Assembly (NCBI RefSeq): GCF_000013005.1
Contig: NC_007722.1
Span: 1,741,501 to 1,805,500, forward strand
DNA from: Erythrobacter litoralis HTCC2594
GTDB taxonomy: Bacteria; Pseudomonadota; Alphaproteobacteria; Sphingomonadales; Sphingomonadaceae
DNA length: 64,000 bases
Direction: 5' to 3'
Positions 27,513-47,152 of this stretch are shown piece by piece. The notes beneath the pieces were generated by a model. That model was given only the letters and a program-made list of their open reading frames with translations, was not told the DNA's origin and searched no databases. A program made the position numbers and the translations under genes. Position 1 is the first letter of the stretch, and every line of letters begins with the position of its first letter.

Positions 27513-29015
27513 TCAAGTGCCCCGCTTCCACTCCCAGCCGAGCGGGTCGCCGTCCATAACCTCGACGCCTTTGGCCGCGAGGTCGTCGCGGATTGCGTCG
27601 GAGCGGGCGAAGTCCTTGGCCGCGCGGGCTTCCTTGCGCTCGGCGAACGCGGCCTCGATTTCGGCTTCGCTGATTTCGGCGGTCGCGGGGCGGGTGCGGA
27701 GATCGGTGCGAGAAAGGTTGAGGAGGTCAAAACCCAAAACGGCATCGAAAGCACTTGCGAGAACGAGCTTCTTAGCAGGATCGATCTTCTTGGTGGCGAG
27801 AAGGTCTTCCATGGCGGTCAGGGAGATTGCGGTATTGAGATCATCGGCGATTGCGGTGCCGAACTTCTCGATTGCAGGGCCAAGCTTCCCCCAATCGTCA
27901 CCCTGAACTTGTTTCAGGGTCCATGCTTCCATTTGCGCCCACGGTTTGGAGTTCGGCATCGATGCTGAAACGAGTTCAGCATGACGGGCCTTGAGGGTTT
28001 CGAGCGCCATTACCATGCGCTTTAACCGCACCAGCGCCGCTTCCAATCCTTCCCACGTGAATTCCAGCTCGCTGCGATAATGCGCCTGCAGGCACAGCAT
28101 GCGGTAGGCGAGCGGGTGGAAGCCGCGGTCGACCAGCGCCTGCAGCGTCAGGAACTCGCCCGAGCTTTTCGACATCTTCCCGCGCCGGTCGATCAGGAAG
28201 TTGTTGTGCATCCAGATCTTCGCGCCGCTGTCGGGCGAGCAATTATGCGCCTGGTTCTGCGCGATCTCGTTGGGGTGGTGGATCTCGCGGTGATCGATTC
28301 CGCCGGTGTGGATGTCGAACGGGTGGCCGAGCAGTTCTGCGCTCATGACCGAGCATTCGAGGTGCCACCCCGGTGCGCCCTTGCCCCACGGCGAATCCCA
28401 TTCCATCTGCCGCGTCTCGCCCGGCGGGGTCTTGCGCCAGATCGCGAAGTCGGCGGCGTTGCGCTTGCCTTCGACCTCATCGATGCGGCCTTCACCTTCA
28501 TCGGTTACGGCGCGCGCCAGCCGCCCGTATTCGGGTACGGTCGAGACATCGAAATAGAGCCCGCTGTCGAGCTCGTAGCAATGCTTCGCTTCGATGCTTT
28601 TGGCCCATGCGATCATGCTTTCGACATAGTCTGTCGCACGCGGGTGCTCGGGCTTGCGAATGTTGAGCCGATCCAGGTCGGCCTCGAACACTTGCTGGTA
28701 GTAGCGCGCGATGTCCCATGCGCTCTTGCCCTCGCGCGCGGCGGCCTTTTCCATCTTGTCGTCGCCCGCATCGGCATCCGAGGTCAGGTGGCCGACATCG
28801 GTGATGTTGATCACATGCTTGAGGTCGAAGCCCTTCCAGCTGAGCGTACGCCCCAGCGTATCGGCGAAGATATAGGCCCGCATATTTCCGATATGCTGGT
28901 AGTTATAGACCGTCGGCCCGCAGGTATAGACGCGCGCTTCGCCCGGGTGGATCGGCTGGAATTCCTCCAGCGAGCGGGTGAGCGAATTGAACAGCTTGAG
29001 CGGCGTGGTGGTCAT
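27513..29015 (-). CDS. cysS: Cysteinyl-tRNA synthetase with an in-frame repeat insertion
   Basis: 500 residues, class I synthetase. The zinc Cys and HIGH-like motif are in YTCGPTVYNYQHIGN and KMSKS is in KMSKSSGEFL. Cytoplasmic; charges tRNA-Cys. Residues about 344-373 (from RHAELVSAS to LKQVQGDD) are the translation of a palindromic repeat at 27897-27985, placed after the helices that follow KMSKS, in the linker towards the C-terminal anticodon-binding region. The frame is kept on both sides and the C-terminus (LGWEWKRG) is normal, so the gene is probably functional. It is longer than the typical roughly 460 residues by about the size of the insert. Confidence 0.96.
   Translation of the reverse strand: MTTTPLKLFNSLTRSLEEFQPIHPGEARVYTCGPTVYNYQHIGNMRAYIFADTLGRTLSWKGFDLKHVINITDVGHLTSDADAGDDKMEKAAAREGKSAWDIARYYQQVFEADLDRLNIRKPEHPRATDYVESMIAWAKSIEAKHCYELDSGLYFDVSTVPEYGRLARAVTDEGEGRIDEVEGKRNAADFAIWRKTPPGETRQMEWDSPWGKGAPGWHLECSVMSAELLGHPFDIHTGGIDHREIHHPNEIAQNQAHNCSPDSGAKIWMHNNFLIDRRGKMSKSSGEFLTLQALVDRGFHPLAYRMLCLQAHYRSELEFTWEGLEAALVRLKRMVMALETLKARHAELVSASMPNSKPWAQMEAWTLKQVQGDDWGKLGPAIEKFGTAIADDLNTAISLTAMEDLLATKKIDPAKKLVLASAFDAVLGFDLLNLSRTDLRTRPATAEISEAEIEAAFAERKEARAAKDFARSDAIRDDLAAKGVEVMDGDPLGWEWKRGT
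27897..27985. repeat. Palindromic element inside cysS
   Basis: Ends are GTCA...TGAC. Left hairpin CCCTGAACTTGTTTCAGGG and right hairpin TGCTGAAACGAGTTCAGCA each have a short inner loop. In the minus-strand frame it reads HAELVSAS ... TLKQVQGDD, a peptide I recognise as the common translation of a short interspersed repeat in sphingomonads. Its 89-base body plus flanks adds a multiple of three, so the frame is not broken. Confidence 0.85.
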
Positions 29016-47070: not shown

Positions 47071-47152
47071 CCGTCATCCCAGCGGAAGCTGGGATCTCGT
47101 GCCGCGAGGTACGACCTAGTGGAAAGAGACCCCAGCCTTCGCTGGGGTGACG
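47071..47152. repeat. Paired-hairpin repeat between atpA and atpG
   Basis: ATCCCAGCGGAAGCTGGGAT at the left and CCCCAGCCTTCGCTGGGG at the right, bounded by CGTCA...TGACG. It begins seven bases after the atpA stop and ends directly in front of the atpG ribosome binding site (AAGGAG at 47155-47160). Confidence 0.88.

Follow-up and report, generated by a model that had tools for sequence, protein, structure and literature searches.

Introduction

Rickettsia palindromic elements (RPE) are palindromic repeats that are translated in frame inside conserved genes, and REPIN systems consist of dispersed, non-autonomous REP pairs, to which the dispersed REP pairs described here can be likened. According to the available text of Di Nocera, De Gregorio and Rocco (2013; PMC3733652), GTAG REPs go with Y1 transposases (RAYT/REPtron), and CGTC REPs, which occur in five phyla, lack a transposase of their own and lie near transposase genes only by chance. 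A CGTC REP is defined there by a CGTC (or TGTC/CCTC) tag that is left unpaired at one end, a stem of 8‒9 bp with complementary AT "almost invariably" in the first and second position, a loop of 4‒5 bases and a CCA tail. CGTC REPs are predominantly HH dimers, and heterodimers are found in CGTC-2. The same source mentions tRNA synthetases interrupted by REPs in E. litoralis and S. alaskensis, and its main text does not name cysS.

Here we analyzed a window of 64,000 nucleotides from Erythrobacter litoralis HTCC2594, whose cysS gene carries a translated REP pair. This element resembles the CGTC super-family, as far as the available text describes it, in its CGTC tag, 8-bp stem and 5-base loop (the geometry of CGTC-2), in the CCA on one unit, in being a heterodimer and in its intragenic position, which is occasional in the super-family. 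Unlike the super-family as described in that text, REPs of this kind flank GIY-YIG nuclease genes. They share with the RAYT/REPtron system, as described there, a resident nuclease gene flanked by REPs whose type is matched to each gene lineage, but the nuclease is GIY-YIG (PF01541) and not Y1_Tnp, and the tag is CGTC and not GTAG. The element is also like RPE in that a conserved protein contains the in-frame translation of a palindromic repeat. The original prediction had drawn this analogy, and it is sound, since RPE-6 and RPE-4 of R. conorii are equated with CGTC-1 and CGTC-4 in the available text of PMC3733652. The bacterial order, the stem and the loop differ from those of RPE, the sequence link between the two runs through that source only, and pool exchange and a candidate enzyme are indicated here.

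Results

A REP heterodimer translated within cysS

The cysS gene (27513..29015, minus strand) encodes a cysteinyl-tRNA synthetase (CysRS) of 500 residues, which scores 374.5 bits against TIGR00435 (cut-off 340) and matches PF01406. Since the genome search gave a single cysS match, this copy is not a silent duplicate. The frame is open over its 500 codons, and the insert occupies residues R344 to D374 (first base of codon D374), reading RHAELVSAS...WTLKQVQGDD in frame. A palindromic repeat of about 30 residues is thus translated inside cysS as predicted, and the further proposal that a normally non-coding repeat has become part of an essential enzyme is upheld for this single-copy and presumably essential CysRS. 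In the structure model, the insert is predicted as a low-confidence loop joining two helices. Structure comparison confirmed the CysRS fold and nothing further. The insert is probably a flexible loop of ~31 residues in a length-variable helix-helix connection of CysRS, and the enzyme fused with it would be fully active.

The sequence, the translation in cysS and the lengths of REP pairs elsewhere define the element as a CGTC-type REP heterodimer of 91 bp (27896..27986) with its tags outward. The two hairpins of the original prediction are real, and the limits lie one base further out at each end than the predicted 27897..27985, so that the ends are CGTC/GACG instead of GTCA/TGAC. Unit 1 (27896..27923, plus strand) has the stem ACCCTGAA/TTCAGGGT and the tail CCA, and unit 2 (27959..27986, minus strand) has the stem ATGCTGAA/TTCAGCAT and the tail CGA. 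Both units begin with the unpaired CGTC tag, both 8-bp stems pair at 8/8 positions, and the loops, CTTGT and CTCGT, have five bases each. The stem of unit 2 starts with AT, as in the CGTC definition, and that of unit 1 with AC paired with GT. In alignments, the spacer between the units (27924..27958, minus strand), which codes roughly for MPNSKPWAQMEA, is the variable part of the insert.

A 26-base REP pattern (≤3 mismatches) matched the window once, at 27961‒27986 in unit 2, and matched 0 of 100 shuffles. The plus strand of the element, which is antisense to the mRNA, folds to -52 kcal/mol versus -34.8 kcal/mol after shuffling (z = -4.95). Known RNA families gave only a chance match below threshold at the element (E = 0.49). 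The length of 91 bp is the commonest one for REP pairs of this family, found in 20 of the 43 distinct pairs in the loci examined, cysS copies included.

The family has at least one copy in 73 of 149 family genomes and up to 128 copies in one genome. The window's genome holds three copies in all at ≤3 mismatches and so lacks the many dispersed copies expected of a REP. The insert is still called a CGTC REP here, judged on its repeat structure and on its relatives. It is short, palindromic and non-autonomous, its ends are REP hairpins, and a candidate enzyme is encoded elsewhere in the genome. A RAYT origin is ruled out for the window's genome, which has no match to PF01797 (Y1_Tnp), a profile matched in 5 of 14 control genomes, and in which the tag is CGTC instead of GTAG.

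The original prediction also took the insert to be of the same kind as an element found in gaps of this genome type. This holds weakly for the genome, where the other two family copies both flank one GIY-YIG gene, and fails for the gap pairs of the window, which belong to a second CGTC family. One of these pairs (29035‒29114) occupies the gap that separates the cysS start from the neighboring gene (ORF 29122‒29802), and the other, with its REPs outward, lies at 47072‒47152. A third kind of palindrome, of the GAGCCTGTCGAAG type, was seen by eye just downstream of cysS (~27395‒27500) and also upstream, close to 25.2 kb (~25167‒25300).

GIY-YIG genes flanked by CGTC REPs

Below, G000 is the window's genome, and other G, L and P numbers denote genomes, loci and CysS homologue proteins, respectively. 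The two further copies of the cysS REP family in G000 (C1:2116862-2117264; L089, 2363‒2765) flank a short GIY-YIG gene (2116911‒2117216) located between ruvB and another ORF. Three other GIY-YIG genes of this genome, at G000:C1:654550, 804375 and 1484761 (L122, L124 and L125), are flanked by outward CGTC REPs of the second family (CATCCCAGCG or CATCCCCGCG). Outward CGTC hairpins stand on both sides of four of the eight GIY-YIG loci examined in G000 (nine hits).

We sampled 111 GIY-YIG loci smaller than UvrC from 59 family genomes (loci 119‒229), a set without frames above ~550 residues (UvrC-sized), one weak hit of 326 residues, one own-genome hit lacking a locus and matches beyond those listed. 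Counting hairpins with [CT]GTCA tags in flanks and control windows alike, the GVT class had outward hairpins on both sides at 33 of 74 loci, on one side at 14 and none recognized at 27. The GHT class, which we read as YhbQ-like, had hairpins on both sides at 0 of 29 loci in the same genome set. The eight loci of other GIY-YIG classes gave one with both sides and two with one side, and the 236 control windows gave none with both and one with one side. The GIY-YIG domains of 33 units conserve the residues Y, Y, R, H and E, which we take to be the catalytic set, at ≥90%.

The two REPs flanking one unit are 92% alike, versus 55% after shuffling (n = 34). Nuclease similarity correlates with REP similarity (r = 0.43, n = 50), and the correlation falls to a null mean of 0.11 when REPs are swapped within genomes (p = 5e-4); therefore the REP type goes with the nuclease lineage and not with the genome. 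Eleven loci of the cysS REP family are flanked on both sides. Measured from the domain, their hairpins are found at -62 to -75 (one at -118) and +101 to +116, and in five of the loci exactly at -67/+111.

One type of GIY-YIG gene was defined as A-type at a threshold of 62% identity, set after seeing the match list. REP-A copy number has a median of 13, without a single zero, in the 35 of 149 genomes that carry an A-type gene, versus a median of 0 in the remaining 114, of which 76 have no copy. At least three REP-A copies occur in 29 of the 35 A-type genomes versus 28 of the 114 without the gene (p = 8e-10). When 56 genomes were paired on the CysS tree and each gene's own flanking REPs and the cysS copy were removed, the association of the A-type gene with dispersed copies was not significant (4.3 pairs the same way, 1.1 the opposite way, median p = 0.375), in a test of little power. 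Thirty top A-type loci were fetched, and in 23 of the 27 in which the gene was located it lies between inverted repeat copies, by hairpin tags broader than those of the control windows (GGTC/CCTC-type tags also allowed) and with no matched control.

The neighborhoods of the 30 A-type loci fall into 11 groups, the largest with 14 and 6 members. The group of 14 is that of ruvB, which directly adjoins 13 of the 30 loci. A flanking ORF is common to 107 of 435 A-type locus pairs versus 364 of 406 cysS locus pairs. A hopping GIY-YIG transposon would be expected in varied neighborhoods, and the loci are mostly fixed; the gene is therefore read as a resident one and probably not itself the hopping unit. 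RAYT genes are resident in fixed neighborhoods too, and the A-type genes resemble them in this. A role in defense was also considered for the nuclease and set aside, the PADLOC search having given one weak match (E = 3e-4) confined to residues 20‒53.

The fixed positions of most A-type genes and the non-significant paired copy-number test would also suit a link of another kind, in which the REPs serve these genes as regulatory hairpins, or the two merely occur together in REP-rich gaps. Such a link without mobilization is possible though somewhat unlikely, since the hairpins point outward on both sides in matched pairs, the REP type follows the nuclease lineage within genomes, and none of the 29 GHT-class loci of the same genome set shows them. 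The most likely mover of these REPs would be the resident small GIY-YIG nuclease whose gene the same REPs flank, and we infer their mobilization by it.

A phylum-wide search with the same nuclease covered 299 genomes, with 30 loci requested and the gene located in 23 of 29 new ones. Hairpins flank the gene on both sides at 3 of 5 loci of the family, 1 of 7 of other class members and 3 of 11 of other phylum members, and on either side at 5 of 5, 3 of 7 and 7 of 11, respectively. Five named plasmid loci (Novosphingobium aromaticivorans pNL2, Azospirillum lipoferum, Sinorhizobium meliloti pSymB, Sphingobium and Rhizobium) were hand-picked from 33 records and scored by a looser definition (stems up to 12 bp) with no matched control. 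In all five, CGTC hairpins surround the GIY-YIG gene, as outward REP pairs or as REP dimers. At the Azospirillum lipoferum locus (AZO_p3; L370, 573‒1081), the GIY-YIG gene, which has one REP dimer to its left and one to its right, is located between sufB and sufC.

Distribution of the insert among CysS relatives

Among the 120 best CysS homologues, 80 have both arms, at the same site, 2 have one and 38 have neither; an arm was counted at ≤2 substitutions, and the list is biased, being ordered nearest first from a query that holds the insert. Occurrence of the block, with conserved sequence, in distant CysS proteins had been named in the original prediction as a sign that it is native. The block is indeed conserved in this biased list, but what is conserved is the REP, and its carriers are scattered. 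Conserved insert sequence among homologues is by itself no proof of protein function.

At the DNA level, both arms are intact in 16 of 136 cysS rows (L103 duplicates L018). The rows comprise 80 named loci and the 56 best-scoring of 147 family genomes with a match, a sample biased by similarity to the query. On a CysS tree built without the insert columns, the label changes 14 times for the 16 carriers, 11 of these changes being forced by starred branches; shuffled labels gave a mean of 15.4 changes, and 62 of 500 shuffles were as low as the observed 14. The carriers show almost no clustering on this tree, whose shape recombination may distort. Within one genus, G000 and G002 have the insert and G096 lacks it. 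A native CysRS segment, shared by most homologues through vertical inheritance, is not what the alignments and the tree show. The insert looks like neither a private accident nor a simply inherited segment, a state that appears new.

The 16 intact copies measure 76, 85, 88, 91 or 112 bp from end to end. All these lengths are 1 mod 3, as the reading frame demands, which makes selection on frame evident; the spacer, in contrast, is free to vary. Some non-carriers hold decayed inserts at the same site that still read RHA...W(T/N), as in L104 (RHAEA...EGWTFERVRSE), L111 and L116. The pattern of a decayed insert matches 17 of 120 non-carriers, with L086 a false match. A minority of the 120 non-carriers (L019, L020, L023, L037, L059, L104, L111 and others) have W(T/N) at the place of the REP-derived WT, a pair that is possibly a remnant turned useful. 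In P0113, which contains TLKQVQGDVVVVQGNVAGVQGAF, and in P0120, P0029 and P0097 the insert is enlarged further, as if a repeat-derived loop were still growing.

Arm conservation and the local REP pool

Among same-residue codons, the fraction with identical codons is 0.86 in the arms versus 0.60 in the rest of cysS, with the higher value in the arms for 104 of 105 pairs. The arms have a mean homozygosity of 0.860, whereas the highest of 442 windows elsewhere in the gene reaches 0.811. Since the synonymous sites of the arms are too conserved, this codon analysis rules out selection on the peptide alone. The tails, examined in depth for one lineage, are TTA and not CAT in 49 of the 55 REP copies of G137. 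Its cysS copy, included in this count, has TTA at both ends, and TTA tails occur in 0 of 53 REP copies read in loci of nine other carrier genomes.

The state of the cysS copy also goes with the REPs of its genome. At least two copies elsewhere occur in 10 of 10 genomes with an intact cysS REP versus 20 of 46 without (Fisher p = 0.001; phylogenetically paired, 5.4 pairs the same way, 0 the opposite way, median p = 0.0625). The A-type gene is present in 8 of 10 versus 7 of 46 (p = 1.5e-4; independent pairs, 5.9 and 0.0, median p = 0.03). G018, whose assembly is 85% complete, and G033 have an intact cysS REP without the A-type nuclease. The A-type gene of G002 (L311, G002:C2:181317-181622) has an internal TAG; this genome nevertheless retains 10 REP copies, and its cysS insert is intact. 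In G069 and G138, with 42 and 17 REP copies, the cysS insert is decayed or missing. Because of the codon-level conservation of the arms, the tails of G137 and the association with the REP pool, we infer that the local REP pool either renews the cysS copy or exchanges sequence with it.

Scattered carriers, host-type tails in G137 and the tie between insert presence and REP pools could also result from many independent insertions of the REP dimer into a single cysS hot spot, in which case neither an old insertion nor exchange would be involved. This explanation is unlikely, since the dimer would have met the same codon boundary in the same frame every time while relatives without the REP show no conserved target. 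The RHA...W(T/N) remnants of L104, L111 and L116 suggest old occupation, and the spacers look lineage-related, MPNSEPW recurring in several Altererythrobacter/Parerythrobacter-type proteins. We therefore favor an old occupied site over a hot spot, because of the identical place, the lack of a visible target motif in non-carriers and the decayed forms.

A single ancient insertion, inherited vertically and kept since its hairpins (as RNA or DNA) or its peptide are useful to cysS, would fit the common site in many relatives, the codon-level conservation and a compensated stem change in G018 and G066 (ATGCCGAA/TTCGGCAT). We consider it improbable. Its presence is near random on the tree, many close relatives, G096 included, lack it, and some copies (L094 and L097) have broken stems. 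Synonymous sites are too conserved for a purely useful peptide, and selection on cysS alone does not predict that the insert tracks REP pools and the nuclease. The spread of one REP-bearing allele by horizontal exchange of cysS segments among Sphingomonadales would explain the scattered carriers and the separate positions of the same-genus G000 and G002 on the CysS tree, but it is highly improbable, since the tails of G137 are host-specific and the codon identity of the arms exceeds that of every other window of the gene, so that any exchanged tract would be the REP arms alone.

Discussion

We consider, with moderate confidence, that the cysS insert is a CGTC-2-like REP heterodimer located in a helix-helix connection and renewed from the REP pool, with a small GIY-YIG nuclease as the likely mover. 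A resident GIY-YIG nuclease would recognize its own REP and cut or nick it, and repair would then copy REP dimers to new places and between existing copies. The site in cysS may have been occupied long ago in Sphingomonadales. Where the REP population is active, other REPs of the genome would replace the cysS copy or convert it and so keep it REP-like; elsewhere it would have decayed or been lost. Such exchange would rewrite the arms within cysS, while the frame and the loop position would let the protein survive.

A REP inside a tRNA synthetase is already published, and the renewal of the insert and the link to GIY-YIG nucleases look new. In the open-access papers that our search covered, no literature joining GIY-YIG nucleases with REPs was found. 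The wider proposal is that small GIY-YIG proteins are the dedicated enzymes of CGTC REPs, forming a second REP system apart from RAYTs that extends through Alphaproteobacteria to other groups and in which each REP type has its own nuclease lineage, and that in Sphingomonadales this system rewrites a CysRS loop with the current REP. We hold the chances for and against this proposal to be evenly balanced. The GIY-YIG link, if proven, would answer the open question of which enzyme serves CGTC REPs. With a nuclease gene that matched REPs enclose, that varies with the REP type and that follows REP abundance, this question becomes one of cloning and a cleavage assay. Since the cysS element stays REP-like at the codon level in an essential gene, REPs within genes are not necessarily neutral scars of a single event. 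If the proposal is true, part of a housekeeping protein is encoded by mobile DNA that is renewed again and again.
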